Source: Brasilonema angustatum HA4187-MV1 (GTDB lineage: Bacteria; Cyanobacteriota; Cyanobacteriia; Cyanobacteriales; Nostocaceae). Taken from it: a stretch of 64,000 bases of DNA. The notes under the pieces were generated by a model. It was not told the DNA's origin. It searched no databases and worked only from the letters and a program-made list of their open reading frames with translations. The DNA lies in assembly GCA_019359695.1 (NCBI GenBank), contig JAHHGV010000014.1, positions 62,001 to 126,000 on the forward strand, in the 5' to 3' direction. Positions 18,901 to 41,376 of this stretch are shown piece after piece. Numbering within the stretch: the first letter of the stretch is position 1; each line of letters begins with the position of its first letter. Both the position numbers and the translations under genes were made by a program.

Positions 18901-19181
18901 GTCCGTTTGATGCCATTTATGAAGCTTGTTTGATTCGGTTCCGTCCGATCATGATGACGACAATGGCAGCTTTAATGGGAACATTACCAATCGCCCTAGG
19001 TTATGGTGCAGGTTCTGAATCTCGTCGTCCTCTGGGAATTGCCGTTGTTGGTGGATTGGTGTTTTCTCAGATATTAACGCTGTATTTAACACCAGTGTTT
19101 TTTACATACATGGAAGCTTGGCGGAAAAAACTCACACAGGTTAAGTTTCGTCGAGTTTCTTCGTTGACAGGAGTTAGGTAA
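15972..19181 (+). CDS. RND multidrug efflux transporter (HAE1 type), copy 1
   Basis: A 1069-residue proton-driven inner-membrane pump of the AcrB/MdtB class. TM1 follows the N-terminal LFIRRPIMTTL. The proton-relay aspartates lie in LSVGFVVDDAIVMLENI (TM4), and the relay lysine in LLVGIVKKNGIMMVDFA (TM10). Twelve membrane segments are recognisable. An in-frame Asn/Ser/Thr-only tract of about 35 residues interrupts the second porter/docking region (DNA repeat at 18303-18410) and is absent from copy 2. The start overlaps the adaptor stop in ATGA, indicating coupling. Substrates cannot be predicted. Confidence 0.95.
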   Translation: MNLSQLFIRRPIMTTLVMAAILIFGLMSYRLLPISDLPSVDYPTIQVSAARPGASPETMASSVARPLEKQFSSIAGLDSLNSTSTLGSSQITLQFNLSRNIDDAAQDVQAAISAASGQIPDDLPNPPSYSKVNPADQPILYLYIDSPTLPLSQVDKYAQTYLAQKLSTINGVAQVQVYGSQKYAARIQLDPEKLASQQIGLDQVETAIQQGNVNLPTGSISGKNKNFTVQANGQLQDAAAYRSLIVAYRNGAPIYLEQLGRIIDSVQNDKVASWYNDTRAIILSIQRQPGTNTVQVVDTIKESLPKLSDQIPKSVEIGVFYDASQSIRESVDDVRFTLVLTIGLVILVIFLFLRNLSATVIPSLALPVSLIGTFAAMYMLGYSLDNLSMMALTLSVGFVVDDAIVMLENIVRHMEMGESRLEAALNGSREISFTILSMTISLVAVFIPMLFMGGVLGRLFHEFAVTIAVAILVSGFVSLSLTPMLCSRFVGAPNHENQSRLYRASEYVFDRFLAVYDWTLKIALKFHLTTMILSGVLFIVTIYLFIVVPKGFIPSEDTGQIIATTQAAQDASFDNLVRHQQEVVNLIRQNPDVDAVNSNIGPGSSASGGGGAVAGNSGNLLIRLKERSHRHNSADKIVQELRSKLASVPGIKVFLQNPPAIPIGTQQTTGLYQLALQSTEVQSLEKYVPQLVAKMQTLPELLDVNSDLQIAPQIKINIDRDKASTLGITAEQIENTLKNAYGAYQVSTIYAASDEYEVILELQPEYQQDPNALMKLYVNTSTSTNSTTNTSTSTSTNSTTNTSTSTSTNSTTGQAVPLSTFATISQGVGPLMVNHYGRMNAATISFNLAPGASLGAATQTIEDLVHKVIPASITTSFQGASEVFQSSLPSLGLLLAVAILVIYLILGILYEDFIHPLTILSGLPSAGFGALLTLLIFHVELNVYSFIGIILLVGIVKKNGIMMVDFAIEAQRNEGKSPFDAIYEACLIRFRPIMMTTMAALMGTLPIALGYGAGSESRRPLGIAVVGGLVFSQILTLYLTPVFFTYMEAWRKKLTQVKFRRVSSLTGVR
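18303..18410 (+). repeat. 36-bp coding repeat giving an Asn/Ser/Thr tract
   Basis: Nearly perfect 36-bp units (12 codons, STTNTSTSTSTN) are repeated two to three times inside the RND gene. They keep the reading frame and are absent from the paralogue at 19913-23026. Confidence 0.85.
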
Positions 19182-19214
19182 GAATGAAAACATTACTTAG
19201 GCAAAATAATGAAA

Positions 19215-19290
19215 AAATAAACCGCAAAGGACGCAAAGTACGCGAAGAAAGAGAAAAAAGAAGAGAAATTGAAAAGTTCATTTACCCATC
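19215..19290. repeat. Genome repeat (AACCGCAAAGGACGC family)
   Basis: A copy of a dispersed repeat whose core reads AACCGCAAAGGACGCAAAG. Related copies lie near 9205, 19775 (inverted), 31145, 32742 (inverted), 36672 and 46285 (inverted). Confidence 0.7.
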
Positions 19291-19334
19291 AAAATTAATG
19301 CGATAGACCAGTAGTTTACCTCGGAGATTGATCT

Positions 19335-19655
19335 ATGAGTTTAATACTAGAACAAGAAAGTCCTCCCCTAAGTCAAGATGCCACAGGCGCAATTCGAGTG
19401 GGTAAAACAAGAGTTTTGCTGGAACTGGTCATTCGCGCCTTTGCTGATGGTGCATCTGCTGAATCAATTGTTCAGCGTTATTCATCGTTATCCTTATCTG
19501 ATGTTTATCTGACAATTGGTTACTATCTTCGACATCGGGATGCTGTGGAAGCATATCTAGATCAACGTGAGCAGTTAGCTGAATCAGTTCGTCAACGTTT
19601 GTCCAGTGTTCAACCTGATTTGAGACTGATTCGTTCTCGCTTGTTAGCTCAGTAG
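19335..19655 (+). CDS. DUF433 family protein (antitoxin-like)
   Basis: A 106-residue protein with the DUF433 pattern: AIRVGKTRVLLELVIRAFADGASAESIVQRYSS-like core, then a helical C-terminus beginning SDVYLTIGYYLRHRD. DUF433 has a winged-helix-like fold and often precedes a DUF5615/PIN-like toxin gene in cyanobacteria. No such partner follows here, since the next 250 bp are a MITE-like repeat and non-coding sequence. It is therefore either a solitary regulator or an orphaned antitoxin. It sits between the two RND genes and may have split an older efflux operon. Confidence 0.8.
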   Translation: MSLILEQESPPLSQDATGAIRVGKTRVLLELVIRAFADGASAESIVQRYSSLSLSDVYLTIGYYLRHRDAVEAYLDQREQLAESVRQRLSSVQPDLRLIRSRLLAQ

Positions 19656-19741
19656 CAATTCTATGAAGCTTTTAGAAATCAGTAGACACAATAATCTATA
19701 AAATTCCTTTTTCATCATTTTACCTAAGTCCTTAACTTTAT

Positions 19742-19815
19742 TAGGACTTACGCAGGAACTCTCTAAAACTCTTATTCCTTTGTGTCCTTCGCGCCTTGGC
19801 GGTTCGTTTTTCTAT
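19742..19815. mobile_element. Partial MITE, TAGGACTTACGCA family
   Basis: The left terminus TAGGACTTACGCA and body CTCTCTAAAACTCTTATT match the copy at 46232-46322. The right terminus is not recognisable, so this copy is degenerate. It lies between DUF433 and the second RND gene. Confidence 0.65.
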
Positions 19816-19912
19816 TTTTTGTTCACTAGCTATCTAGGATTGCTGTAACTTCACATTTGCCAACATCATCCACCCCAAATTTTGAAATAAAAAATCTGGA
19901 ACAACACAACTC

Positions 19913-22900
19913 ATGAACCTTTCAGAACTCTTTATCCGCCGTCCTGTCATGACAACCTTAGTCATGATAGGTATCGTCATCTTCGGTCTCATGAGTTATG
20001 CACTGTTACCAATTAGCGCTTTACCTCATGTAGAATATCCCTTTATTTCCGTCTCTGCCAGTTTGCCGGGTGCGACGCCTGAAACAATGGCATCTTCTGT
20101 TGCTTCACCTTTAGAAAGACAATTTTCCAGTATTGCTGGACTGAATTCCTTCAACTCCACCAGTTCAACAGGCAGTACCAACATCTCCCTGCAATTCGAC
20201 TTCAACCGCAGCGTGAATGATGTTGCCAAAGATGTCCAGGCAGCAATTTCAGCAGCAGCAGGACAATTGCCACCAGGTATGCCTAAACCACCTACCTACC
20301 GTAAGGTCAACCCGTCGGTTGCACCGATTCTCTACCTGTACATGTATTCCGAAACGCTCCCTATCGCTACAGTGGACGAATACGCAGAGATTACGGTCGG
20401 TCAGCCAATCTCTATGATTGATGGCGTTGCCCAAGTACAAGTATACGGTCAGCAGCAATATGCTGTTCGCGTCCAAGTTGACCCACAAAAATTGACAACG
20501 CGGGGAATCGGGCTAAATCAGGTCAAGACTGCGATCGCACAGTCAAATGTAAACTTGCCAACTGGCAGTGTTTCTGACCGTAACAAAACTTACACAATCC
20601 AAGCAAACGGTCAACTCACGAATGCTGCTGCTTATCGTTCACTAATCATTAGCTACAAAAATGGCGCACCTGTGAGACTCCAAGATGTGGGGCAGGTGAT
20701 TGACAGCGTGCAAAATGATAAAGTCTTGAATCTCTACAACGGCATTCATTCGGTTCTTCTGGCTGTGCAGCCTCAACCAGATGCCAACACGGTGGAAATT
20801 GTCGATACCATCAAGCAACTTCTACCCACTCTGCGCGAACAAGTTCCCAAATCACTTGAGATGGGCATCATGTACGATCGCTCTGAATCGATCCGCGCTT
20901 CGGTTGATGACGTGAAATTCACGTTATTTCTATCAGTTTGTTTGGTTGTCGTAGTCATCTTCCTATTTTTGCGTGAACTCTCTGCCACACTCATTCCCAG
21001 TCTGGCACTCCCTGTGGCACTGATCGGCACATTTGCCGTAATGTATCTGTCGGGCTATTCTCTGGACAACATCTCACTGATGGCGTTAACGCTCTCAGTC
21101 GGCTTTGTTGTTGATGATGCGGTCGTTGTACTGGAAAATATCGTTCGTCACCGCGAAATGGGTGAAGGTCCAATGGAAGCGGCGTTCAATGGCTCGCGAG
21201 AAATCAGCTTCACAATTGTGTCGATGACATTATCGCTGGTGGCGGTGTTCATCCCCCTGATATTTATGGGTGGATTAATTGGTCGGTTGTTTCATGAATT
21301 TGCCGTGACAATTGCCGTTGCGATTTTGGTGTCGGGCTTTGTTTCCCTCAGCCTCACGCCAATGCTATGTAGTCGATTCATCCGTCCACCAAATCATCAG
21401 CATCAAAGCCGTCTGTATCGTGCTTCGGAGCGTGTCTTTGATTTACTGTTGCGGGGGTATGAGTGGAGTCTCAAGCCATTTTTTAGATACCGCCTGACAA
21501 CACTCATCGGTTCAGTCATTCTCTTAGCGTTGACAGTTTACTTGTTTGTCCTTGTTCCCAAAGGATTCATTCCCACAGAGGACACTGGACAAATCATGGG
21601 AAACACGCGAGCAGCACAAGATATATCCTTTGATGCTATGCAGCTTCACCAAGAGAAGATCGTTAACATCATTCGTCAAAACCCTAATGTTCAAGCTGTT
21701 GACTCTATTGTAGGTGCGAGTGGACCCAATGCTGCTGTCAACTCTGGTCGAATTACTATTCTGTTGAAGCCGCGTTCCCAACGCCGTCTCAATTCCGACC
21801 AAATTATTCAAGAAATGCGCCCTAAGTTGATGCGCATACCAGGCATCCAAGTATTCCTACGCTCTCCACCTGCTATCCCTATTGGTGGTCAACAAACTAA
21901 TTCATCATACCAGTTTTCGTTACAAAGCCTGGACTTACAAGCACTCCGTCAATATGTTCCTATACTAAAAGATAAAATTAAAGCACTACCAGGATTCCGG
22001 GACGTTGACAGCGACTTAGAACTGAGTACCCCACAGTTACAAGTCGAGATTGACCACAAAAAAGCAGCAACGCTTGGTATTACGGCAGAACAAGTCGAAC
22101 AAACACTTGGCGCTGCTTATGGTTCTAGCCAAATTTCAAAAATTTATACCCCAGACGATCAGTTTTACGTAATTCTAGAATTAGAGCCGCAGTATCAGCA
22201 CGATCCCAACGCTCTATCGCTACTCTACGTCCAATCGAGTAATGGACAACTGGTTCCTTTAACGGCGATCGCCCGTATCACCCAAGGAGTTAGTCCTCTC
22301 ACCGTCAAACACGTTGGTCAGCTGCCTTCTGCCACTATTTCTTTCGATGTAGCAGAAGGAATGTCTCTGAGTCAAGCGACAGACACCATCAAGCAACTCG
22401 CTAGTCAGATTCTGCCTGAAAGCATCACTACCAACTTTCAAGGTTCTGCACAAGTCTTTCAACAGTCTTTCAATGATTTAGGCTGGCTGTTGCTTGTGTC
22501 GATTGTGGTGATTTATCTGATTTTGGGTATCCTCTATGAGGATTTCATTCACCCCATAACCATTCTTTCTGGTTTGCCTTCGGCTGGCTGTGGTGCTTTG
22601 TTAACACTGTTGATTTTCGATGTCGAGTTAAATCTCTACTCCTTCATCGGAATCATTTTGCTAGTAGGTATCGTTAAGAAAAACGGCATTATGTTGGTAG
22701 ACTTCGCGATTGAAGCGCAGCGACGGGAAGGGAAAAATTCCTTTGATGCTATCTACGAAGCCTGCTTGGTTCGCTTCCGTCCAATTATGATGACAACAAT
22801 GGCAGCTTTGATGGGGACAATACCAATTGCGTTGGGGACAGGTTCGGGTTCTGAAGCACGTCGTCCTTTGGGGATTGCGATCGTCGGCGGATTAGTGTTC

Positions 22901-23026
22901 TCTCAGATTTTGACGCTTTACCTGACTCCTGTGTTTTACACTTACATGGAAGAATGGCGGAAAAAGCTTGGTCAACCCAAGTTTCCGAGATTTTTTTCTC
23001 GCAAGAAAGTTAAGCATTCAGGCTGA
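19913..23026 (+). CDS. RND multidrug efflux transporter (HAE1 type), copy 2
   Basis: A 1037-residue paralogue of the pump at 15972-19181, with the same landmarks. These are LFIRRPVMTTLVMIG at the N-terminus, LSVGFVVDDAVVVLENI in TM4, LLVGIVKKNGIMLVDFAIE in TM10 and a C-terminal EEWRKKLGQPKFPRF tail. It lacks the Asn/Ser/Thr tract of copy 1. There is no adaptor gene of its own, so both pumps may share the single adaptor upstream. One adaptor with two RND subunits recalls MdtABC, where MdtB and MdtC form a mixed trimer. That is inference. Confidence 0.95.
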   Translation: MNLSELFIRRPVMTTLVMIGIVIFGLMSYALLPISALPHVEYPFISVSASLPGATPETMASSVASPLERQFSSIAGLNSFNSTSSTGSTNISLQFDFNRSVNDVAKDVQAAISAAAGQLPPGMPKPPTYRKVNPSVAPILYLYMYSETLPIATVDEYAEITVGQPISMIDGVAQVQVYGQQQYAVRVQVDPQKLTTRGIGLNQVKTAIAQSNVNLPTGSVSDRNKTYTIQANGQLTNAAAYRSLIISYKNGAPVRLQDVGQVIDSVQNDKVLNLYNGIHSVLLAVQPQPDANTVEIVDTIKQLLPTLREQVPKSLEMGIMYDRSESIRASVDDVKFTLFLSVCLVVVVIFLFLRELSATLIPSLALPVALIGTFAVMYLSGYSLDNISLMALTLSVGFVVDDAVVVLENIVRHREMGEGPMEAAFNGSREISFTIVSMTLSLVAVFIPLIFMGGLIGRLFHEFAVTIAVAILVSGFVSLSLTPMLCSRFIRPPNHQHQSRLYRASERVFDLLLRGYEWSLKPFFRYRLTTLIGSVILLALTVYLFVLVPKGFIPTEDTGQIMGNTRAAQDISFDAMQLHQEKIVNIIRQNPNVQAVDSIVGASGPNAAVNSGRITILLKPRSQRRLNSDQIIQEMRPKLMRIPGIQVFLRSPPAIPIGGQQTNSSYQFSLQSLDLQALRQYVPILKDKIKALPGFRDVDSDLELSTPQLQVEIDHKKAATLGITAEQVEQTLGAAYGSSQISKIYTPDDQFYVILELEPQYQHDPNALSLLYVQSSNGQLVPLTAIARITQGVSPLTVKHVGQLPSATISFDVAEGMSLSQATDTIKQLASQILPESITTNFQGSAQVFQQSFNDLGWLLLVSIVVIYLILGILYEDFIHPITILSGLPSAGCGALLTLLIFDVELNLYSFIGIILLVGIVKKNGIMLVDFAIEAQRREGKNSFDAIYEACLVRFRPIMMTTMAALMGTIPIALGTGSGSEARRPLGIAIVGGLVFSQILTLYLTPVFYTYMEEWRKKLGQPKFPRFFSRKKVKHSG

Positions 23027-30437: not shown

Positions 30438-32666
30438 ATGAGCGATGCTATATTTGCCAGACTCGCCCCTTTTATCCAAGAATATATTTATAATCATAAC
30501 TGGACTGAATTAAGACCAGTTCAAATCGAAGCTTGTAAAGTCATCTTTAACACTGATGCTCATTTGCTCGTTGCTACTGGTACTGCTTCGGGGAAAACAG
30601 AAGCAGCATTTTTACCAGTTTTGACTTTATTACATGAAAACCCTTCTGCTACAATTGGCGCACTGTATATTGGTCCTATTAAGGCTTTAATTAATGATCA
30701 ATTTGAACGTCTGAATGATTTGTTGAAAGAGGCTGATATTCCTGTTTGGTATTGGCATGGTGATGTTAGCCAAAGTCACAAAACTAAGCTTCTTAAGAAT
30801 CCTAAGGGTATTCTGCAAATTACACCAGAATCTTTAGAAAGTTTATTAATTAACAAACATCATGAGTTAGCGCGTTTGTTTGGTGACTTACGGTTTGTGA
30901 TCATTGATGAAATTCATGCATTTATGGGTTCAGAACGAGGTTGTCAAATTCTTTGTCAATTAGCACGGTTGGCAAGATTGACGCAAAGAGAACCCCGAAG
31001 AATTGGTTTGTCGGCGACTTTGGGTGATTACTCGATGGCTGAAGAGTGGTTACGTTCTGGGACTGATAAGTTGGTGCTTACTCCGAAGATTGAGGGGGGA
31101 AAACGTCAAATTCGACTTGCGGTGGAGCATTTTTATGTTTTTGAAACGAACCGCCTTAGCGCAGCGTGTCCCCAGGATATAGACGCCAAGGACGCAGAGA
31201 GAGGAAAAGAAGATACAAGTCTATATGATAGATATGTTTTTAATTTGAGTAAGTCTCGGAAGTGTCTGATTTTTGCAAATAATAAGTCGCAAACGGAATC
31301 TGTGATTTCATCTTTGCGTCAAATTGCTTCTGATGAGGGGTATCCAGATATTTATCATGTGCATCATGGTAGTATTTCTGCGAGTTTGCGTCAAGCGGCT
31401 GAAGCTGCTATGCGTGAACCAAATCAACCAGCGGTGACTGCTGCGACGTTGACTTTAGAGTTGGGTATTGATATTGGTTATTTGGAGCGAGTTATTCAGT
31501 TGGAATCGCCTCTTTCTGTTGCTAGTTTTTTACAACGGTTAGGACGTACTGGAAGAAGAGGTGAAGCTGCTGATATGCGGTTTGTTTGTGCTGAGGAGAA
31601 AGTAGATGCAGAAGCATCTTTACCGGAACAAATTCCTTGGCAACTTTTGCAATGTATTGCAATTATTCAACTCTATTTGGAAGAGCGGTGGATTGAACCA
31701 ATTAAGCCTTTGATATATCCTTTGAGTTTATTATATCATCAGACAATGAGTGTTTTAGTAGCAATGGGAGAACTTTCTCCTGCTGGTCTTGCTAAAGAGG
31801 TTTTAAGTCTACCAAGTTTTGCTGCTATTTCTCAGGAAGATTTTAAGTTATTGTTGCGCTATCTCATTGATATTGACCACCTTCACTTAACTGAGCAAGG
31901 TAAACTTATCGTAGGTTTGGTAGGAGAAAAGGTGGTAGGTAAATTTCAGTTTTATGCTGTTTTTCCTGATAATCAGGAATATGTTGTTAAGCAAGGAACA
32001 ACAGAAATTGGTAGTATCACAACGCCGTCTCCTGTTGGACATCTATTTGCTTTGGCAGGGAAAACTTGGGAAGTTGTAGATGTTGATTTTAAAAGAAAGA
32101 TTATTTTAGTTAAGCAGGTAGATGGTAAGGCTAGTATTTATTGGCGGGGTGGTAGTGGTACGATTCATACAAGAATTTTGCAACGAATGCGACAGGTGTT
32201 GTTTGAGGATATGGAGTATAGCTACTTACAAAACAATGCTTTGAAGCGTTTGCAGTCAGTTCGTGAATTGGCAAGAGAAGCTGGACTCGATAAACATAAT
32301 ATTTTGCAATTAGAAAAGGGAAAGTGCTGCATCTTTCCTTGGATGGGTACTGTCGCTTACCGTACTTTGGAAAGATTGCTAAACAGTTTTTGTCGTGAGT
32401 CGTTGGAAATTAGCAGTATAAGTGGTGATAATCCTTATTTTTTGACAGTTAAATTAGCTCAGAAAAAAGTTGAATCTCTTTATTATGAAATTGTTTCGTT
32501 ATGTGAGCAAAGAATAAATAATGAGGATTTAGTGAGTGATATGGATGCTCCACAAATTCAGAAGTATGATGAATTTATTCCTTACCCACTTTTACGAAAA
32601 GCGTTTGCTAGCAATCATTTAGATATGTTGGAATTGAGACAACAAGTTGCTCTTTGGCAAGAATAG
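30438..32666 (+). CDS. Lhr-like DEAD/DEAH-box helicase (BrxHI-like)
   Basis: A 742-residue superfamily 2 helicase. Motif Q/I is LRPVQIEAC and VATGTASGKTEAAFLPVL, Ia is YIGPIKALINDQ, Ib is LQITPESLESLL, II is FVIIDEIHAFMGSERG, III is GLSATLG, and VI is FLQRLGRTGRRGEA. The C-terminal 350 residues lack the four-Cys cluster of DUF1998 proteins. The partner gene upstream encodes a BrxD-like ATPase. Around residues 236-260 an in-frame repeat insertion (TNRLSAACPQDIDAK) replaces ordinary sequence between the two RecA domains. The end is followed by degenerate repeats. It probably unwinds or remodels DNA together with its upstream neighbours. Confidence 0.88.
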   Translation: MSDAIFARLAPFIQEYIYNHNWTELRPVQIEACKVIFNTDAHLLVATGTASGKTEAAFLPVLTLLHENPSATIGALYIGPIKALINDQFERLNDLLKEADIPVWYWHGDVSQSHKTKLLKNPKGILQITPESLESLLINKHHELARLFGDLRFVIIDEIHAFMGSERGCQILCQLARLARLTQREPRRIGLSATLGDYSMAEEWLRSGTDKLVLTPKIEGGKRQIRLAVEHFYVFETNRLSAACPQDIDAKDAERGKEDTSLYDRYVFNLSKSRKCLIFANNKSQTESVISSLRQIASDEGYPDIYHVHHGSISASLRQAAEAAMREPNQPAVTAATLTLELGIDIGYLERVIQLESPLSVASFLQRLGRTGRRGEAADMRFVCAEEKVDAEASLPEQIPWQLLQCIAIIQLYLEERWIEPIKPLIYPLSLLYHQTMSVLVAMGELSPAGLAKEVLSLPSFAAISQEDFKLLLRYLIDIDHLHLTEQGKLIVGLVGEKVVGKFQFYAVFPDNQEYVVKQGTTEIGSITTPSPVGHLFALAGKTWEVVDVDFKRKIILVKQVDGKASIYWRGGSGTIHTRILQRMRQVLFEDMEYSYLQNNALKRLQSVRELAREAGLDKHNILQLEKGKCCIFPWMGTVAYRTLERLLNSFCRESLEISSISGDNPYFLTVKLAQKKVESLYYEIVSLCEQRINNEDLVSDMDAPQIQKYDEFIPYPLLRKAFASNHLDMLELRQQVALWQE
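31145..31215 (+). repeat. Genome repeat embedded in frame in the helicase gene
   Basis: AACGAACCGCC, then GCGCAGCGTGTCCCCAGGAT, then CGCCAAGGACGCAGAGAGAG, match the dispersed repeat also found near 9205 and 19215. The copy contributes about 24 codons without breaking the frame. Confidence 0.75.
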
Positions 32667-32739
32667 AACAAATCGTATTGATACTGTTTTCAAGACTAAT
32701 ACCAATTCTCTGTAAACTTGCACTTAATACTTACTCTTT

Positions 32740-32785
32740 CATTCTTGGCGTTCTTGGCGTCTTGGCGGTTCGTCTAATAAACATT
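32740..32785. repeat. Genome repeat fragment, inverted
   Basis: TTCTTGGCGTCTTGGCGGTTCG-like sequence is the reverse complement of the AACCGCCAAGGACGC family core. It lies in the non-coding DNA after the helicase. Confidence 0.65.
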
Positions 32786-32995
32786 AAGTGCATCTTCATG
32801 GAGAATCGGTATAAATATATAATCACAAATATTCCAATCAGCATCTTCTCTAAGTAGTTGAAAGTAGTCACGTTTGAGTTGGTTAAGTCTGCTGTATGAC
32901 ACTAACAAAGTCTTGCTATTACTAGATCTAATGAGAAGATTTCCTGAAAGACGAACAATTTAAGTTGACACCAATGTGCTGGGTGTCGTCCTCTC

Positions 32996-33124
32996 ATATC
33001 ATGTCCGGTGAAAGACTTATCATTAAGACGGCAGGGAGCAGGGGAGCAGGGAGCAGGGGGAAAGAGGATTTCCCAGTTGTTGCACATATTTGGTAATCAC
33101 AACTAATTAGCCGGACATGATATC
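32996..33124. mobile_element. Small element with perfect 13-bp inverted ends
   Basis: ATATCATGTCCGG at 32996-33008 is exactly complementary to CCGGACATGATAT at 33111-33123. The 129-bp interval contains AGGGGAGC-type 7-8 nt repeats and no ORF. It separates two minus-strand coding-like fragments (about 32815-32975 and 33123-33380), so it may be a nonautonomous insertion that broke a gene. Confidence 0.6.
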
Positions 33125-33380
33125 AGGTACATCTCATATTTTTATCGAACAAAAATTTACCAGATTCTTTTACATAATCGCCAAAATAGCTTACACCGAA
33201 GTCAAGCAACCAAGAGTCGGTTCCAAAAAGATTAGAAAGCTGAATATTAATCTCATTGAGTACCACGTCATAAAAATAGCGATCGCACCCAGTGAGGATA
33301 TGGGGTTCTCCACCATGCTGTCTCAGACTTTTGATAAAATCCTCTTCTTGTGCAAAACCAAGCTTTTCGTCGCCAAACAC
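33123..33380 (-). pseudogene. Possible fragment of an unidentified minus-strand gene
   Basis: An 85-codon minus-strand frame starts with GTG and contains FGDEKLGFAQEEDFIKSLRQ and LLDFGVSYFGDYVKESGKF. The frame is also open upstream into a MITE, giving FYLLVVFGDEKLG, and it ends at the edge of the 129-bp inverted-repeat element. I do not recognise the family. The amino-acid composition is protein-like, but coding status is uncertain. Confidence 0.35.
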
Positions 33381-33384
33381 TACA

Positions 33385-33508
33385 AGTAAGTAGAACGGCG
33401 TAAATAATTCACACTATGTCATAGCGAGTGGAACGAAGCAATCACAGGGGTTTGAAGAATTTTACTTTCTGTTACATAATTAGGTTTATTTTCACCGACT
33501 TACTTATA
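33385..33508. mobile_element. MITE, TAAGTAGGTCGGCG family, second copy
   Basis: The left end AAGTAAGTAGAACGGCGTAA and right end CACCGACTTACTTATA match the ends of the element at 25016-25150. The interior differs and includes a GAGTGGAACGAAGCAATC motif. Confidence 0.7.
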
Positions 33509-34435
33509 CGTGCAGTTGCTTTCAGTTGTGGCGTTTGCTGGGGTATAAGAAGGGTGTATGGAATAAATCTGTGGTTCAAGGTATCTGCCACTGATTTTAG
33601 ACCACCAAATCTACGATTTTCTTAATCAACAAGAATCGAAGCTTGCAAACCTCTGATATTTAATCATGGAGTAATGTCCTTCATCAATCGGGACAAGATA
33701 TCCCAATCTTTACAGCAAATGAAGGGCTGATTCGATAAATGATTTAATAGTGATAGGAGTTACTAAATTTATGTAGTCAATGTCACTCTTGTTACACTTT
33801 ATTAACGATTGTAATTATAAATACTTTTATGTAGTATATAAAATTACTATTTTCGAGGTTTTCAATCACTGTTTCTTGTTAAAAATATTAGAAAAACACC
33901 GAAAACATACAAAAAAACAGAGATAATACTAAATATTAATAGCTCAGTTGCCAAAATATATTTTTCTCAAAAAGTGACTTCAGGTAAAGGTTACAGACTT
34001 ATTTGTTAAGTAAAATACTATATTTCTTGGAAGATAATCAGGGAAAATTACTGCAAAAAACAGACTTTATAATTGATGCTATGCTTTTCTGAAACATACG
34101 AAATTTTTTGTAACAAAATTGTGGATGGCAATTATTGTATAAAAGAAATTACGAGTGAATAGGCGAAACAAAGTAGTGAAGCTTCTGTTTTATTGAGGTT
34201 CATTGCTTTTATAACGATTGTGAATTTTTCTCAGATACTAAAAGATAATCTAGTCTTTTGGAAGAGGATGTTCTTGCTATAAGAAAGCAAATGGTTAAGA
34301 TTTTTATAATCTTGGCTTCAAGTTTTTCTTGTGCGATTCTCCGTCTGAGAAGAAGTGCAAAGCTTAATCCTTCACTTCCTGTTTTAAAATCACATCATTC
34401 ATTCTCAACTCATCAAAATTTAGGAGATTTCAACT
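33509..34435. promoter_or_regulatory. Long AT-rich leader region of the phycocyanin operon
   Basis: This stretch of more than 900 bp has no convincing gene. It contains the left 60-bp flanking repeat (33748-33807) and then about 630 bp of AT-rich DNA up to cpcB. The operon promoter and a long 5' leader should lie in the right half. A ribosome-binding site TAGGAGA is present 13 bp before the cpcB ATG. No known sulfur- or light-responsive operator can be assigned by eye. Confidence 0.55.
33748..33807. repeat. 60-bp direct repeat, left copy flanking cpc locus
   Basis: This block matches 38062-38121 at 52 of 60 positions with no gaps. Its left 37 bp, from GTGATAGGAG to TCAATGTCAC, form an imperfect palindrome. 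Together the two copies bracket the phycocyanin operon and its leader. Confidence 0.9.
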
Positions 34436-34957
34436 ATGGTGCAGGATGCTTTTTCTAAAGTTGTTGCCCAGGCTGACTCACGAGGAGAATACCTTAATGA
34501 CTCTCAATTGGATGCTCTACTAGGTTTAGTTAGAGACGGTAACAAGCGCGTTGATGTCATCAACCGGATTACTAGCAATGCCTCTACTATTGTTGCTAAT
34601 GCAGTTCGACAGTTGTTCGCTGAACAACCTCAGCTGATAGCGCCTGGTGGAAATGCTTACACAAGCCGTCGTGCTGCTGCTTGTGTACGGGATTTGGAAA
34701 TCATTCTACGCTATGTGACTTATGCGATTTTTGCAGGAGATGCCAGTGTATTGGATGATCGTGCCCTCAATGGTTTGCGGGAAACTTATCTGGCACTAGG
34801 CACCCCTGGGGCTTCTGTTGCTGTTGGTATTCAGAAGCTGAAGGATGCCTCGATCGCCATTGCCAATGATCCCAACGGTATTACCCGTGGTGATTGCAGT
34901 GCACTGATTGCGGAAGTTGCAACCTATTTTGATCGCGCGGCGGCGGCTGTTGCCTAA
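34436..34957 (+). CDS. cpcB: Phycocyanin beta subunit, sulfur-poor
   Basis: A 173-residue bilin-binding subunit of the phycobilisome rod. Both chromophore cysteines are present: Cys83 in [11 protein letters not shown] (conventional Cys82) and Cys154 in RGDCSAL (conventional Cys153). The third, non-bilin cysteine usual in CpcB (DDRCLNG) is Ala here (DDRALNG). Except for the initiator there is no Met, including the usual MAAC position, which is AAAC. This pattern matches the sulfur-starvation phycocyanin (CpcB3) of Calothrix PCC 7601. The methylated-Asn site GGNAYT is kept. RBS TAGGAGA fits the start. No cpcE/F lyase genes are in the operon, so chromophorylation must use enzymes from elsewhere. 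Confidence 0.96.
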
Positions 34958-35015
34958 ATCGTCACAACTACATCAAATCAATCCTTTATAGAACAAACTT
35001 GGAGATATTAAGTCA

Positions 35016-35507
35016 ATGAGTAAGACGCCTTTAACGGAAGCGATTGTTTCTGCGGATTCCCAAGGTCGCTTTTTGGGTAGCACTGAAATCCAGGTTGCAT
35101 TCGGTCGTTACCGGCAGGCAGCTGTCAGCTTAGAAGCGGCAAAGACGTTATCTAAAAAAGCGTCAAGTCTGGCTGAAGCCGCAGCTAACGCTGTGTATCA
35201 AAAGTTTCCTTATACCACCCAGTTGGATGGACCTAACTACGCTTCTAGTTCCACTGGCAAGGCAAAATGTGTGCGCGATGTAGGCTACTACCTACGGATT
35301 ATTACTTATGCTTTGGTTGTAGGTGGAACAGGTCCAATCGACGATTATTTGATTGCTGGCTTAGCTGAAATCAACCGCACCTTTGAGTTATCTCCAAGCT
35401 GGTACATTGAAGCCCTCAAACACATCAAGGCCAATCATGGTTTATCAGGTGACCCCGCTGTTGAAGCGAACTCCTACATTGATTATGTGATCAATTCTTT
35501 GACCTAG
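35016..35507 (+). CDS. cpcA: Phycocyanin alpha subunit, sulfur-poor
   Basis: The 163-residue partner of CpcB. The single cysteine is the bilin-binding one in [15 protein letters not shown] (conventional Cys84). No Met occurs after the initiator, where ordinary CpcA has several, for example YYLRMVTYC, here YYLRIITYA. The C-terminal [20 protein letters not shown] is fully conserved. It lies 58 bp after cpcB with RBS TTGGAGA. Some residues are PecA-like, but the phycocyanobilin-type context and CpcB partner favour phycocyanin. It is probably expressed under sulfur limitation, by analogy with cpc3. Confidence 0.95.
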
Positions 35508-35836
35508 CGGAAGTCTTTCAGTTTTGTGTGATGCAGCAAGAAAATAATTTGGTAATTTTGCATCCAAAGTAATGTTATTACGAAATTATTTTCACCAAAC
35601 TTCGTTACATAGTTCCACAAAACTGAACCTAAAGTTTGCAAATGCGTCGAGCCTTTGTGTAGTCAGCCTGAAAGGCTTCAAACACTGGCATCATTATCTG
35701 TTCTCTCAATTCAAACTGACTGAGATACTTATGCTGTTGGAGTTTTCTAGCTTTTCAATGACTACGCAAGGGTTTTTTTTAAATGTCTTTTTAACCAGAT
35801 TCGCAGTTGTGTGATCGAGATTTAAGAGGTGGAATT
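35508..35836. other. Intergenic leader between cpcA and first linker
   Basis: This is 329 bp without a gene, unusually long within a cpc operon. It includes a weak hairpin AGCCTGAAAGGCT near 35663. Such spacers in cpc operons lower linker expression relative to subunits by partial termination or processing; that role is inferred here. Confidence 0.5.
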
Positions 35837-36652
35837 ATGGCAAGGCTGGGAGAAGCAAGCCGATTAGGAATTAGCCCATTTGCAGATGCTGAAAAGGTTG
35901 AACTGCGTCCTGTGAGGACAGAAACTGATGTCCAGGCGGTGATTTGGGCGACCTATAGACAAGTTTTGGGCAATGAACATCTGATGCAAAGTGAGCGTCT
36001 TTTGAGTGCAGAATCACTCTTGCGTCAGGGACAGATTACACTACGGGATTTTGTGCGTGCGATCGCCCAATCAGAACTATATCGACAAAAATTCTTCTAT
36101 TCCAACTCTCAAGTTCGCTTCATTGAATTAAATTATAAACATCTTTTGGGTCGTGCGCCCTACGACGAGTCAGAAATTGCCTACCACGTCGATCTCTACA
36201 ATTCCCAAGGTTACGAAGCTGATATTAATTCCTACATTGATTCTGTCGAGTATCAACAAAGCTTTGGAGATTCCATTGTCCCTTACTATCGAGGCTTCCA
36301 AACCGTGGTAGGACAAAAAACAGTTGGGTTTCCGCATTTTTTCCAGTTGTATCGAGGTTATGCGAATAGTGATCGCGCCCAAAGCAAGCCCAAAGGACAA
36401 TTAACTTGGGATTTAGCAAAAAACCTGGTATCCCCCATCTACCCTGCTTCTGCTGGCACTTTAACTGGCACTTCAACAGGTCGTCGCGGTGGTAACACTT
36501 ATCGAATTCGCCTCACGCAGGCGGCTTCTCCTAACTCTACAGTTATCCGCCAGAGTATTAGTGAAGTGGTTGTCCCTTTTGAGCAGTTGTCGGATCGATT
36601 GCAACAACTCAATCGCCAGGGACGCAAGATTATTAGCATCACTCTTTCATAG
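35837..36652 (+). CDS. cpcC: Phycobilisome rod linker, sulfur-poor (first)
   Basis: A 271-residue rod linker. The N-terminal linker domain (about residues 15-180) has the signatures [20 protein letters not shown] and [20 protein letters not shown] CpcD-like capping domain lies at the C-terminus (about 218-271, YRIRLTQ to GRKIISITL). There is no Cys, and one Met besides the initiator (NEHLMQSE). The ATG at 35837 has AGAGGTGG upstream; earlier in-frame starts at 35807 add a non-homologous, Cys-containing extension. The stop codon TAG lies inside the left terminus of a MITE (TAGGACTTACGCA). In cpc3 nomenclature this would be one of cpcH3/cpcI3. Confidence 0.92.
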
Positions 36653-36785
36653 GACTTACGCAAAGTTATGGAAAAACGAACCACAAAGACGAGGCAGTGC
36701 GTTGCGGGGGTTCCCCCCGTTGTAGCACCTGCCGTGCAAAGGACACGAAGAAAAGAGGTTAAGAAGAGTTTTTGCGTAAATCCTG
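36650..36785. mobile_element. MITE within the cpc operon, with a nested repeat
   Basis: Left end TAGGACTTACGCA (36650) and right end TTTGCGTAAATCCT (to 36784) match the family seen at 41377 and 46232. The body carries the AACCACAAAGACG and GCAAAGGACACGAAG halves of the dispersed repeat. These are split by a GC-rich palindrome (GGCAGTGCG...CACCTGCC, about 36690-36734). The first three bases are the stop codon of the upstream linker gene. Confidence 0.8.
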
Positions 36786-36819
36786 TTTCATAAAAGTTTT
36801 TAATCAAGGAGACTTTTAG

Positions 36820-37686
36820 ATGGCTATTACAACAGCCGCATCTCGACTCGGAACCTCTGCTTTTAGTAATGCTGCCCCTATTGAATTATGGTCTAATGCC
36901 AGCCAGACAGATCTTTCTGCTGTGATCGCGGCTGTTTATCGTCAAGTCTTAGGCAATGATTATTTATTAAAATCCGAACGCCTGACTGGCGCAGAATCTC
37001 TGCTGTTGAATGGCTCAATAAGCGTGCAAGAATTTGTCCGTCAGGTGGCAAAATCCCAACTGTATAAAGCTAAGTTTTTCTCCAGTAGCTTCCACAGCCG
37101 TTTCACTGAGTTGAACTACAAACATTTTTTGGGTCGTGCCCCTTATGATGAATCTGAGATAGCCTATCACCTGGATTTGTACCAAACCAAAGGATACGAC
37201 GCTGACATTGATTCCTATATTGACTCAAGCGAGTACCAAGTCAACTTTGGGGAAAATATCGTACCCTACTATCGGGGATTTAAGACTCAACCTGGACAGA
37301 AAACCGTGGGCTTTACCCGGATTTTTCAGTTGTATCGTGGGTATGCGACGAGCGATCGCTCCCAAATCCCAGGCAATTCCCCTCGTCTAGCTAGTGAACT
37401 GGCGAAAAATAGTGCATCAACCGTAGTTGCTCCTGCCCCTAGCAATAATGGCTTTGCCTATCGTCCTCCGCTAAGAGGAGAAACTCCCAGCAGCACATTT
37501 GGAGGCTCACAAGCTTTTGGCACAGGACGACTCTATCGAGTTGAAGTGGCAAGTATTTCCAAACCAGGATATCCCAAGGTTCGCCGCGTCAACCAAGCAG
37601 TCGTTATCCCCTACGAACAGCTATCAGATTACTTTCAAAGGGTTCAACGCCAAAATGGCAAGATTGCCAGTATTACGCCTCTTTAA
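36820..37686 (+). CDS. cpcC: Phycobilisome rod linker, sulfur-poor (second)
   Basis: A 288-residue paralogue of the preceding linker, with N-terminus [14 protein letters not shown] typical of CpcC. The linker domain has [20 protein letters not shown] and [20 protein letters not shown] Pro/Ser/Thr-rich connector (about 195-230) leads to a CpcD-like domain ([10 protein letters not shown] to GKIASITPL). There are no Cys, and no Met after the initiator. RBS AAGGAGA lies 8 bp before the ATG. Together with the first linker it sets rod length in two hexamer layers. Identification is secure; which linker is proximal cannot be told. Confidence 0.94.
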
Positions 37687-37710
37687 TTCAGACTTTATAA
37701 AATTTGTCAA

Positions 37711-37727
37711 TCCCCCGATAAGGGGGA
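37711..37727 (+). promoter_or_regulatory. Hairpin between second linker and cpcD
   Basis: TCCCCC-GATA-AGGGGGA forms a short stable stem followed by AT-rich sequence. It lies between the linker stop and cpcD and may attenuate or stabilise the transcript, adjusting capping-linker dose. Confidence 0.55.
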
Positions 37728-37760
37728 ATTTAAATTTCCTTTAATTTCTGGGATAATATA

Positions 37761-38009
37761 ATGGTTTATCAAATTGTTAGCGGCAGAGGCAACAACTCCA
37801 TTGCAGCGAATCGGAGTTTCCGGTTTGAAGTGATCGGTCTCCATCAAAATGAGGTTACGGATAATAACAATTATGCCATTCGCTCCAGTGCCAGTGTGTT
37901 TATTACGGTACCGTTTAGCCGCTTAAATCAAGAACTCCAGCGGATTAATCGACTCGGTGGCAAAATCGTTAATATAGAACCGTTGGCACCTGAAACTGAT
38001 CAAGCTTAG
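37761..38009 (+). CDS. cpcD: Phycobilisome rod-capping linker CpcD, sulfur-poor
   Basis: An 82-residue capping linker of the CpcD/ferredoxin-NADP reductase N-terminal fold, with FRFEVIGL, VFITVPFSRLNQELQRINRL and GGKIVNIEPL. It closes the distal end of phycocyanin rods. It has no Cys and only the initiator Met, like the rest of the operon. It is the last gene; the right 60-bp flanking repeat starts 53 bp after its stop. Confidence 0.94.
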   Translation: MVYQIVSGRGNNSIAANRSFRFEVIGLHQNEVTDNNNYAIRSSASVFITVPFSRLNQELQRINRLGGKIVNIEPLAPETDQA

Positions 38010-38061
38010 GACAAATTCCCATTTGATTTGCAGATAAAATTAAAAATTAAAGGTAATGACA

Positions 38062-38121
38062 TAGTGATAGGAGTAACTAAATTTTAGTAGTCAATATCAC
38101 TTTTGTTACACTTGATTAATC
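38062..38121. repeat. 60-bp direct repeat, right copy flanking cpc locus
   Basis: This is 87 percent identical (52/60) to 33748-33807 in the same orientation. Its right end includes the stop codon and last codons of the minus-strand TIR-Roco gene. The left 37 bp, from GTGATAGGAG to CAATATCAC, are a better palindrome than in the left copy. Confidence 0.9.
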
Positions 38122-41108
38122 TTGGATGCTGCTTCTTTGATTTTACTACAGATGTCCACCCAAGCTCCATCTTGCTCTGCCTCACTCAACCTACTTAGAG
38201 GATTCTTGGGATCGTGCGCTGCTTGATACTTTTCAATTGCTGTTTCTTTGTAACTGCTAAAACGCAACGGTATCCAAATAATCGTAAGTCCTTTGGCTTG
38301 AGCTGTATTTAGTAGTGGAGGTAACTCATTCTCAGCAATGAAATCTGATGCTAAAAAGTCAGGGCTAACCATCAACACAGCTACTTTTGCTGCTGCGATC
38401 GCTTCTTCGATTTCTTGTCGCCACTCAGCACCGGCTTTGATCTTGGTATCATCCCACACCGCGAGTTTTTGATTGCGAATCATGGGTTTTAGGTGTTTCT
38501 GGAGTTCGGTAAGCGATTGTTGGTCTTCATGACTATAGCTTATGAAGACTTGATTTCTGATTATGGGTTCTGGCATAAATGATTGCTGAGATTCATTTTT
38601 CTTCTGTTCTAATTCCCGTTGCAACTGTGCACCCGAAGTTTGCTCCATAACATCATCAATCAACTTTCGGACATCTACCATTTGAAAGCTGTTCTCGCAC
38701 TCAATTTGTTTTCGACCAGCTTTTAAGCGCTTTTGCAGTGCATCCAGAGGATAAGCATAAGGCGTCTGACTTCCTTGACAGCTTTGGCAATTGCAGGGAA
38801 CAAAGATTTCAGGCTTCAAACGCTTGAAAGACTGATGAATTTTTTCGAGTTCGTGGGTGACAACTGCTAGCAGTTCTTTCTTGCGGTTTCCGGCGACACG
38901 AATTTTAATTTCCCTTTGATTATAGTTTTCAATAACTTTGGCACGGGTTTGGTCTTTATTGAGAACAACGCCGCTTTTCCAAACGAGTTTTTGTTCATCA
39001 ATCCAAGGGTATGTCTCAACGATGAAGCGGGTGAGGATACCTTTGGGCATGAATTCCTTGTATTCGTAGCGCAAAATCAGGTTGTTGGTTTCGTCCCAGG
39101 TGTAGTCGGGTTGGTTAGCACAAAGCAGTTGAGGTGCAATATAGGTGTCAGGAAGATTGTCAGGACGATTGGGAATTTTGTAGCACAGTTTAAATTTCAT
39201 CATTAGCTGCAACAGTTCTGCCCGCATATCGGTATATTTGTTGTCATGCCAAATTTTTGCTAAATCATTGCGGTCAAATTTACCCAAGTTTTCAATGACT
39301 TGTGGGTTATCCAAAACTTTGTAAACGGCATCTGTACCCCAACTAGGTTTGAGAATCACGGTTTTTCGTAGCAAGTCATCCTCTTGGAAGTGAAGACATA
39401 CGCCTAAATCATGCAGATAGCCGCTGAGTTGGAATTTGTCCTTATTTGCAGTAAACCCATATTGTTGACAAATAGTGAGATATTCTTCCAAGCTAATATA
39501 TTCGCGGGGGTCGTCTTCTAAAGCTTCCCGGACTTTAACCCAGGTTTTGGGGAGTTCTGTTCCTACATGGGGTAACTTTTGAATGTAATGCTTAATATTA
39601 TTAAGGATTTCTGGAAGACCACGATTAGTAGCAAGATTTGTAGTGAGTGTTTCTTTAAAATTAGTGAACTGACCCCGTAACTCCCGTTCGTTGATTTCTG
39701 GTTTACGGTCCTGCTTTTCGTTTTTGATAATTAACAAAGGACTATTATCGCTGAGTAACTCTACCACTTTTAGCCAGTAGTAAAAATCTGTATCTTCTTT
39801 ACGAGTATCTGCGACCACAACATAAAGGGAGCGTTTGGTGAGGAAAAATTGGTGAGTAGTATGATAAATTTCCTGACCGCCAAAATCCCATATATTAACC
39901 TGAAACTCTCTGCCAGTTAAGAGTGGAAATTTCCATTGAATAACATCAATACCTTCGGTAGAGATTTCATCCTGTTGTAGCTGATAATTTTGGTCTTGAA
40001 TTTTTTTTGCTAGCGTAGTTTTGCCCGCTCCAGCTTCTCCTACAATAAGTAATTTGGCTTCGTAGAGGTAATCAGTTTCTTGTTCTAGCTGTTGCCTGTA
40101 AAACTCCAGAATTTTTCTAAATCCTTTTGTTTGGATTTCTGGTGGAAGTGATTTTAGGGGATTGTGATCAAGCTCAAGGTTTGTGAGTTTAGTGAGTCGT
40201 CCAATTTCCCTTGGCAAGCTGTTCAGTTGATTGCTGCCCAGGTAGAGCCATAGCAGGTTGGTGAGTTGTCCAATTTTTGCTGGCAGTGCGCTCAGTTGAT
40301 TCCTGTCGAGGTGGAGCTTTTGCAGGTTGGTGAGTTGTCCAATTTTTGCTGGCAGTGCGCTCAGTTGATTGCTGCCCAGGTGAAGCTTTTGCAGGTTGGT
40401 GAGTTGTCCAATTTTTGCTGGCAGTGCGCTCAGTTGATTGTCGCCCAGGTGGAGCTTTTGCAGGTTGGTGAGTTGTCCAAATTCGGGTGGCAGTGCGCTC
40501 AGTTGATTGTCGCCCAGGTAGAGCGTTTGCAGGTTGGTGAGTTGTCCAAATTCTGCTGGCAGTGCGCTCAGTTGATTGCTGTCGAGGTGGAGCGTTTGCA
40601 GGTTGGTGAGTTGTCCAAATTCTGCTGGCAGTGCGCTCAGTTGATTGCTGCCCAGGTGGAGCGTTTGCAGGTTGGTGAGTTGTCCAATTTCTGCTGGCAG
40701 TGCGCTCAGTTGATTGTCCCAGAGGAGGAGCGTTTGCAGGTTGGTGAGTTGTCCAATTTCTGCTGGCAGTGCGCTCAGTTGATTGCTGCCCAGGTGGAGC
40801 GTTTGCAGGTTGGTGAGTTGTCCAATTTCTGCTGGCAAACTGCTTAAGCGATTATCAGTAACCTGAAGTTTTTCAAGATGGTGAAGCTGTCCGATTTCTG
40901 TAGGTAAAGCACTCAGGTTATTCCCGATAGTACCATCAATACAGCCCGCGTCATTATATTTATATTTGCCGATAATCAGTTTTTTGAGTTGAGTCAACTT
41001 GCCAATCTCAGGCGGTAAAACTGTCAACTCATTACCCGATAGGTCAAGTTCTCTGGCTCCCTCACTCGCCGCCTCCTCAATTACCCGCTGCAATTCTTCC
41101 TGAGTCAT
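38106..41108 (-). CDS. LRR-Roc-COR-TIR (Roco) protein, NLR-like
   Basis: A 1000-residue multidomain protein. An N-terminal leucine-rich repeat array (about residues 18-325, 23-residue units such as LSALPAEIGQLTNLQTLHLG) is followed by a Roc GTPase. P-loop is LIVGEAGAGKTTLAKKI, the G3-like motif is NIWDFGGQEIYHTTHQ and the G4-like motif is IKNEKQDR. A COR region extends to about 710, and a Cys-containing segment (PCNCQSCQGS) follows. The C-terminal TIR domain (about 855-990) begins NQVFISYSHEDQQ. Its SPDFLASDFIAENELPPLL segment holds a candidate catalytic Glu. TIR domains of this type often cleave NAD+, so I infer a sensor-switch-effector defence or cell-death protein. The start is the ATG preceded by TTGCTG. 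Confidence 0.9.
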   Translation of the reverse strand: MTQEELQRVIEEAASEGARELDLSGNELTVLPPEIGKLTQLKKLIIGKYKYNDAGCIDGTIGNNLSALPTEIGQLHHLEKLQVTDNRLSSLPAEIGQLTNLQTLHLGSNQLSALPAEIGQLTNLQTLLLWDNQLSALPAEIGQLTNLQTLHLGSNQLSALPAEFGQLTNLQTLHLDSNQLSALPAEFGQLTNLQTLYLGDNQLSALPPEFGQLTNLQKLHLGDNQLSALPAKIGQLTNLQKLHLGSNQLSALPAKIGQLTNLQKLHLDRNQLSALPAKIGQLTNLLWLYLGSNQLNSLPREIGRLTKLTNLELDHNPLKSLPPEIQTKGFRKILEFYRQQLEQETDYLYEAKLLIVGEAGAGKTTLAKKIQDQNYQLQQDEISTEGIDVIQWKFPLLTGREFQVNIWDFGGQEIYHTTHQFFLTKRSLYVVVADTRKEDTDFYYWLKVVELLSDNSPLLIIKNEKQDRKPEINERELRGQFTNFKETLTTNLATNRGLPEILNNIKHYIQKLPHVGTELPKTWVKVREALEDDPREYISLEEYLTICQQYGFTANKDKFQLSGYLHDLGVCLHFQEDDLLRKTVILKPSWGTDAVYKVLDNPQVIENLGKFDRNDLAKIWHDNKYTDMRAELLQLMMKFKLCYKIPNRPDNLPDTYIAPQLLCANQPDYTWDETNNLILRYEYKEFMPKGILTRFIVETYPWIDEQKLVWKSGVVLNKDQTRAKVIENYNQREIKIRVAGNRKKELLAVVTHELEKIHQSFKRLKPEIFVPCNCQSCQGSQTPYAYPLDALQKRLKAGRKQIECENSFQMVDVRKLIDDVMEQTSGAQLQRELEQKKNESQQSFMPEPIIRNQVFISYSHEDQQSLTELQKHLKPMIRNQKLAVWDDTKIKAGAEWRQEIEEAIAAAKVAVLMVSPDFLASDFIAENELPPLLNTAQAKGLTIIWIPLRFSSYKETAIEKYQAAHDPKNPLSRLSEAEQDGAWVDICSKIKEAASKINQV
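40190..40850 (-). repeat. Homogenised 69-bp LRR-coding tandem repeats
   Basis: About nine consecutive 69-bp units are nearly identical at the DNA level, differing mostly in the codons for two or three surface positions (Gly/Asp/Trp/Arg in LHLGSNQ, LLLWDNQ and LHLDRNQ). This points to recent expansion or gene conversion. Confidence 0.9.
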
Positions 41109-41376
41109 CAGCAATCTACTGAACTATTATTCAATATATTAAAGGTAGCCCAAATTCTGAGGTACACCTACTCCTTTCCCACCCGAAGATTACCGTTTAG
41201 GTAGCAGGGGAGCAGGGGAGCAGGGAAGCAGGGGAGAAGAAATTACATCGGTAATCTTACACAGGGAAGGGAGTAAATAAAAATCAAGCCCGCGTTAGCG
41301 AAGCGCATAGGCGGGCTTTGTTTGTTTCGCCCCACCCTTCTAGAATGTGGGCGTATATTTGCAAAACTGACGTACT

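Follow-up and report, generated by a model that had tools for sequence, protein, structure and literature searches.

A cpc3-type phycocyanin operon purged of methionine and cysteine in Brasilonema angustatum, and evidence that rod purging is recurrent among cyanobacteria

The genome of Brasilonema angustatum HA4187-MV1 contains a phycocyanin (cpc) operon whose products (phycocyanin, two rod linkers and a cap) would form an alternative phycobilisome rod, purged of methionine (Met) and cysteine (Cys) except for the three Cys residues that hold bilins. The operon lies in a 64,000-nucleotide stretch (GenBank assembly GCA_019359695.1, contig JAHHGV010000014.1, positions 62,001 to 126,000), here called the window, which is part of contig C75 of the 98 contigs in our numbering of this 8.5-Mb genome. 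It belongs to the known cpc3-type sulfur-sparing kind, and it very probably provides a rod that saves sulfur under low sulfate, replacing the sulfur-rich set encoded on another contig, C85. Few proteins of the cell are as abundant as those of the phycobilisome rods; when sulfate is low, the purged set would be produced instead of the C85 set, keeping light harvesting going while sparing Met and Cys. Both induction by low sulfate and replacement of the other rods are what we infer for the host strain. The precedent is cpc3 of Calothrix/Tolypothrix sp. PCC 7601 (Fremyella diplosiphon), the case of “sulfate-driven elemental sparing”, which is likewise a second cpc operon with hardly any Met or Cys. 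Its gene order is cpcB3A3H3I3D3, and its linkers are depleted as well. When sulfate is low, PCC 7601 acclimates by means of antenna proteins that are poor in sulfur amino acids (PMC4424289). The window strain belongs to a different genus group, and its operon, a putative orthologue of cpc3, has one internal Met.

CpcB, CpcA and CpcD of the window operon all score above the NCBIfam cut-offs for C-phycocyanin beta, C-phycocyanin alpha and the rod-capping linker, and two PF00427 rod linkers and CpcD are encoded on the same strand as cpcBA. The first-pass annotation, made from the letters of the sequence, had counted only three Cys residues in the five proteins, all of them at bilin attachment sites, and a single Met other than initiators, and our recount agreed with it throughout. 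CpcB retains Cys83 and Cys154 and CpcA retains Cys85, so that all three bilin Cys residues are kept; neither protein has another Cys or any internal Met. Initiators aside, rod linker a contains one sulfur residue, Met50, and rod linker b and CpcD contain none. The five proteins thus have 4 Met or Cys residues in 972, whereas 23.7 would be expected from the frequency (2.4%) in the 41 other open reading frames of the window (P = 6e-7); beyond the bilin Cys residues the count is 1 in 969 (P = 1e-9 against the same baseline). The annotation had also read alanine in place of the usual third Cys of CpcB and of the Met that precedes the bilin Cys, and both substitutions are there: Ala110 occupies a site that is Cys in 35 of 35 normal rows of the alignment described below, and Ala80, three residues before the bilin Cys, a site that is Met in 34 of the 35. 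In pairwise comparisons with three relatives, nonsynonymous divergence of the operon genes (dN 0.005-0.13) was far below synonymous divergence (dS 0.11-1.9), and the genes are therefore kept by purifying selection.

The host genome has a second set of these genes. Two CpcB proteins were found, on C75 and C85, and there is one further cpcBA operon. The first-pass annotation had proposed counting Met and Cys in the cpc paralogues of the genome, its reading being at risk had the window operon been the sole copy; the C85 operon, the only other one, proved to be sulfur rich. Its internal Met and Cys residues number 6 and 3 in CpcB, 2 and 2 in CpcA, 5 and 2 in one linker, and 3 and 0 in the other, which gives 20 over the four proteins beyond initiators and bilin Cys residues. 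The two operons encode the same protein families (78% identity for beta and 80% for alpha), and their core promoters are similarly laid out, as judged by eye. They differ in that no CpcD over the cut-off lies beside the C85 operon. The cpcD gene of the window encodes the only short, stand-alone CpcD over the cut-off in the host genome (G000:C75:99761); the other match (C62:132067) lies inside a 437-residue frame that, from its length, is probably ferredoxin-NADP reductase. The remaining phycobilisome proteins that could be read (the core linker on C1 and linker frame L027 were left out of this count), namely ApcA, ApcB, CpeA, CpeB and PE-linker-like proteins, named by eye, have 2-5 internal Met residues each. 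On contig C65 (L030 and its upstream region), an SsuA gene lies ~12 kb from a cpeBA-like operon. The interval holds one permease-like and one ATPase-like gene, and the CpeB of that operon is unpurged (5 Met, 7 Cys).

We then compared the operon with its relatives, which came from a scan of genome contigs. The best 80 of 116 loci were used, picked by similarity to the window CpcB, and the class counts are therefore not prevalences. These loci and the two operons of the host gave 85 CpcB+CpcA pairs, of which 32 were purged (no internal Met and the three bilin Cys residues, with one extra Cys in four rows), 18 partial and 35 normal. All trees were quick trees. Once Met/Cys columns had been removed, the window operon and 22 fetched loci formed a clade of 23 purged rows, clade I, with a support of 98 in the Shimodaira-Hasegawa-like approximate likelihood ratio test (99 with DNA). 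Of the named relatives among the 80 loci, Brasilonema sp. CT11 has the CpcB most similar to that of the window (99%). By the NCBI ranks of the record names clade I spans five orders: it includes Brasilonema, Scytonema, Calothrix and Trichormus within the Nostocales and, outside them, Elainella and Tildeniella, Stenomitos and Leptolyngbya, Nodosilinea, and a metagenome-assembled Lyngbya. The purged operons of Calothrix (L039 and L042, in the clade with supports of 98 and 99), Scytonema and others have gene order as well as clade in common with the window operon, and those of the Brasilonema and Scytonema relatives also have one internal Met. All 15 of the clade I genomes that were searched contain two or more CpcB proteins over the cut-off. 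At the alignment sites compared, none of the purged operons among the close relatives had regained a Met or Cys.

The spread of purging to both linkers and CpcD, which the first-pass annotation had thought worthy of remark, held up (one Met in all three proteins), but it is not peculiar to this strain. It is the rule in clade I where these genes are present: in the 12 fetched loci in which both linkers were found, they have 0-1 internal Met and no Cys. Neither linker was found in ten clade I loci (L045, L046, L047, L048, L049, L051, L056, L057, L064 and L098), and L054, on a short contig, contains part of linker b only. Seven loci of Calothrix and Scytonematopsis (L045, L047, L048, L049, L051, L056 and L057) yielded only the purged cpcB and cpcA, beside a conserved acyl-CoA-dehydrogenase-like gene that is weakly related to SfnB, a weak name at 36 bits against a cut-off of 431. 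In four loci of Leptolyngbya type and Trichormus (L040, L044, L046 and L050), the purged operon stands head-on to a normal cpcBA operon, ~4-7 kb away, that carries cpcE/F-like genes.

The composition of the purged proteins bears on what was saved. Purged rows contain 3-5 sulfur residues over four proteins and normal rows 15-26; for CpcB and CpcA alone, the means are 3.0 in clade I and 13.6 in normal rows. Met and Cys are the most easily oxidised residues, and their removal might have served resistance to oxidation rather than sulfur economy. The other oxidisable side chains do not follow suit: clade I and normal rows have 17.5 and 16.4 Tyr, 1.0 and 1.0 Trp, and 1.3 and 1.1 His, respectively. 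Side-chain nitrogen is not lower in clade I either, and Phe is only slightly lower (9.0 versus 10.0). The loss of sulfur is thus not matched by a loss of nitrogen, Trp, Tyr or His, which argues for sulfur saving over both general economy and oxidation resistance, and since several sister operons also neighbor sulfur-uptake genes, as described below, we consider protection from oxidation a very improbable cause.

Clade I operons often lie near sulfur-scavenging genes, more often than expected by chance, the window operon excepted. Matches to SsuA and SbpA over the cut-off were listed for 13 of 16 clade I genomes (G005, G009 and G011 left out). In 7 of the 13, an SsuA or SbpA gene is found no more than 20 kb from the purged cpcB (0.34 expected; P = 9e-9), with one neighborhood common to G004, G006 and G007 and several neighbors common to G008 and G016, so that there are approximately four or five independent cases and the P value is overstated. 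Within 10 kb the count is 5 of 13 (0.19 expected). Around the purged cpcB of the window genome, G001, G002, G003, G010 and G032, the 20 kb to either side contain no such gene over the cut-off, and none was seen at this distance from the sulfur-rich cpcB copies when the lists were read by eye; G003 has one match below the cut-off 15 kb from its sulfur-rich cpcB. Other neighbors, by NCBIfam names, are the sulfate importer CysA, CysT and CysW (L045), SsuA and an SsuB-like ATPase, the latter below the cut-off (L042), MetX and MetY (L051), NtaA/DmoA-type monooxygenases (L038 and L056), and a TauD-like protein below the cut-off (L098). A separate tblastn count of sulfur neighbors, biased because its queries were taken from clade I loci, gave 14 of 23 loci in clade I, 0 of 7 in clade II, 0 of 2 in clade III (both clades are described below), 0 of 18 among partial loci and 2 of 46 among normal ones. 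Two of those 46 controls, L147 and L162, are clade I loci fetched again, and the two matches were in L147 and, with a 42% CysA match, in L154. Of the two counts, the SsuA/SbpA listing is the one relied on here.

Purged rows also occur outside clade I. Seven of them, clade II, group with 17 partial rows of Nostoc type, with supports of 91 from CpcB and CpcA, 97 from the linkers and 99 from the four proteins. Most clade II loci have the same flanks as partial loci, with phycobilin-lyase-like genes on the upstream side and cpcE- and cpcF-like genes on the downstream side (names by eye). A single clade of all purged rows was rejected by the linkers in the approximately unbiased test (p = 2e-6; 20 purged rows among 65, one operon being present twice) and by the four proteins together (p = 4e-5). 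The CpcB and CpcA proteins did not reject one clade of the 32 purged rows (p = 0.51), nor the joining of clades I and II (p = 0.50), I and III (p = 0.57) or II and III (p = 0.32); their DNA rejected the joining of I and III (p = 0.0017) but not that of I and II (p = 0.15). Since the linkers reject a union of clades I and II and CpcB and CpcA do not, cpcBA alone could have been copied from clade I into a Nostoc locus. Individual sites point both ways. CpcB 39 is Val or Ile in clade I and Ala or Thr in clade II and the partial rows, and alignment column 266, in CpcA, is Leu, Thr or Ser in clade I and Gln in the other two groups. Against a separate purge, both clades have Ala at CpcB 80, and clade II mostly shares the Ala of column 295 as well; CpcB 87, 110 and 135 are Leu, Ala and Leu in both clades, apart from one clade II row that retains Cys, and Met or Cys in the partial rows. 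On balance, the housekeeping cpc operon of the Nostoc group seems to have been purged separately from clade I.

By the linker trees, then, the purge arose at least twice. It is hardly credible that so low a sulfur content arose by drift or followed incidentally from an amino-acid bias of rod proteins. Many cyanobacteria do have linkers with little Cys to begin with, but neither the probability calculated above for the window operon, nor the gap in sulfur content between purged and normal rows, nor a repeated origin would be expected from drift.

In clade II the purged protein is the housekeeping one. It is the sole CpcB in five of the six genomes searched (of seven; L083 was left out), and the sixth, which is metagenome assembled, has a second, 130-residue frame that is CpcB- or PecB-like; nine of the 17 genomes with partial operons were searched and have one CpcB each. 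Purging therefore need not mean a sulfate switch. Clade III consists of Amazonocrinis and Dendronalium, a purged pair that retains the third CpcB Cys and has a less purged CpcB elsewhere in the genome (8 and 7 Met and Cys residues, respectively). Finally, the sole phycocyanin of Geminocystis sp. GBBB08 (L102) has one internal Met in CpcB and none in CpcA, compared with 5 and 2 in its nearest relative in the tree. It pairs with this normal relative (support 99). A single group of all purged and partial rows was rejected when Geminocystis was included (p = 2e-4) and was not rejected without it (p = 0.46). This looks like a separate, partial purge in the Chroococcales.

A purged phycocyanin has been CRYSTALLISED (PDB 6JPR, from Nostoc sp. 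R76DM), and this is the closest solved structure to CpcB and CpcA of clade II. It is identical to Nostoc ATCC 43529 at 170 of 171 aligned beta residues and 159 of 161 aligned alpha residues, and its aligned chains, counted by eye, are free of Met and have no Cys other than the three that hold bilins. It therefore belongs with clade II rather than with the clade of the window operon, both being purged. BG11 medium contains sulfate. According to the main text of the report on 6JPR, the cells were grown in BG11, and the protein is a hexamer of the usual kind, carries three bilins in each alpha-beta unit and has a blue-shifted maximum at 611 nm (PMC6614406). That text gives 12 substitutions, five of which are Met or Cys losses (alpha Cys to Ala; beta Met to Ala, Met to Leu, Cys to Ala and Met to Leu); within it the words sulfur and methionine are absent, and sulphur occurs once, in a species name. 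On this account purging leaves phycocyanin functional, and the purged protein can be produced without imposed sulfur starvation, and the R76DM substitutions can be read, from the alignments, as sulfur purging.

These observations bring forward a different reading of the window operon, in which the purged rods would serve as a low-sulfur antenna in general use, made constitutively or driven by light or development, with no exchange at low sulfate. Several points count against a switch. The clade II phycocyanin is a sole copy, so that purging as such is no proof of a swap, and a near-identical protein was, by the published main text, purified from cells grown in BG11. No SsuA or SbpA over the cut-off lies on the contig of the window operon, and no sulfur gene was seen beside the operon when gene starts were read by eye, without a profile scan. 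The core promoter resembles those of housekeeping cpc operons. A motif search of 16 clade I promoters returned the ribosome-binding site as the strongest motif and, once this was masked, an upstream element ~290-340 nucleotides before cpcB in 12 of the 16 promoters. Scanning found it in 16 of 23 clade I loci, those without it being the seven cpcBA-only loci of Calothrix type (L045, L047, L048, L049, L051, L056 and L057). Weaker forms precede partial and housekeeping cpc operons of Nostoc and the housekeeping operon of Calothrix NIES-4101, and the 230 kb of SsuA/SbpA loci scanned contained no match above 14 bits. We accordingly rejected the element as a sulfur-regulon motif and take it as part of what looks like a general cpc promoter; neither the motif search nor the scan of the 23 loci found a sulfur-specific motif. 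On the other side, the host genome retains a separate sulfur-rich operon, several of the clade I operons have sulfur-uptake genes nearby, and PCC 7601 does respond to low sulfate (PMC4424289). We therefore regard the general antenna as unlikely and favor the sulfur-saving alternative rod. The cpc3-type second phycocyanin proposed in the first-pass annotation fits the sulfur-rich second operon, the gene order, the clade, and the unreduced nitrogen and other oxidisable residues.

The features of the operon and its promoter are given in Table 1. For rod linker a we adopted the ATG at 35837; an alternative TTG lies further upstream at 35807. Transcription starting just after the TATAAA box would imply a leader of ~285 nucleotides. 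Across positions 32500-38200 there was no Rfam match at E 1 or better, and we rejected a riboswitch or other RNA family near the operon. Right after the operon, on the minus strand (38106-41114), is a gene for a large leucine-rich-repeat protein with a GTPase-like middle and a TIR-like end (by eye); at the corresponding position the Scytonema locus L036 has a TauE/SafE-like gene (named by eye; it scores 75 bits against an unnamed model and does not reach the cut-off). Further away (14197-23026), the window encodes a membrane-fusion-like protein and then two large RND-type transporters (by eye), with a small open reading frame separating them.

Table 1. Features of the purged phycocyanin operon and its promoter (window positions)
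Feature	Coordinates	Strand	Evidence
Conserved upstream element CGAAATTTTTTGTAACAAAAT, two TAA-type half-sites ~11 bp apart	34099..34119	+	Motif search
TATAAA, likely -10 box	34138..34143	+	Similar box 15-18 nucleotides after the element in 12 promoters
cpcB, phycocyanin beta, 173 amino acids	34436..34957	+	TIGR01339, 298 bits (cut-off 279)
cpcA, phycocyanin alpha, 163 amino acids	35016..35507	+	TIGR01338, 293 bits (cut-off 269)
Rod linker a, 271 amino acids	35837..36652	+	PF00427, 177 bits
Rod linker b, 288 amino acids	36820..37686	+	PF00427, 169 bits
cpcD, rod-capping linker, 82 amino acids	37761..38009	+	Passes NCBIfam cut-off

Taken together, these results make it likely that rod purging is recurrent and has followed two routes. 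One is an accessory operon, often near sulfur-scavenging genes, as in clade I with its five orders by name, the window operon included. The other is a separate purge of the housekeeping operon in place, as in Nostoc clade II and probably too in Amazonocrinis, Dendronalium and, partly, Geminocystis, which would leave a sole phycocyanin permanently low in sulfur. As far as our searches show, both the single clade of purged operons across five orders, often near sulfur-scavenging genes, and the separate purge of the housekeeping operon in the Nostoc group are new, as is the recognition that structure 6JPR is almost the same protein as that purged form; among the literature matches listed (titles and abstract openings, most subscription papers lying outside their scope), no paper dealt with a sulfur-purged Nostoc phycocyanin or with linkage to ssu genes. 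To our knowledge, the case for sulfur-sparing antennae has rested mainly on one strain, PCC 7601. The same change is now seen in many genomes and, for the linkers, has arisen at least twice independently; the purged form lies near sulfur-scavenging genes in some lineages and is the sole phycocyanin in others. The substitutions published for a Nostoc phycocyanin, discussed in the main text of that report without reference to sulfur, may thereby gain a sulfur reading, and the comparison makes it possible to test what purging costs the pigment, when a switch is retained and when it is abandoned, and what genes make up the low-sulfate response.

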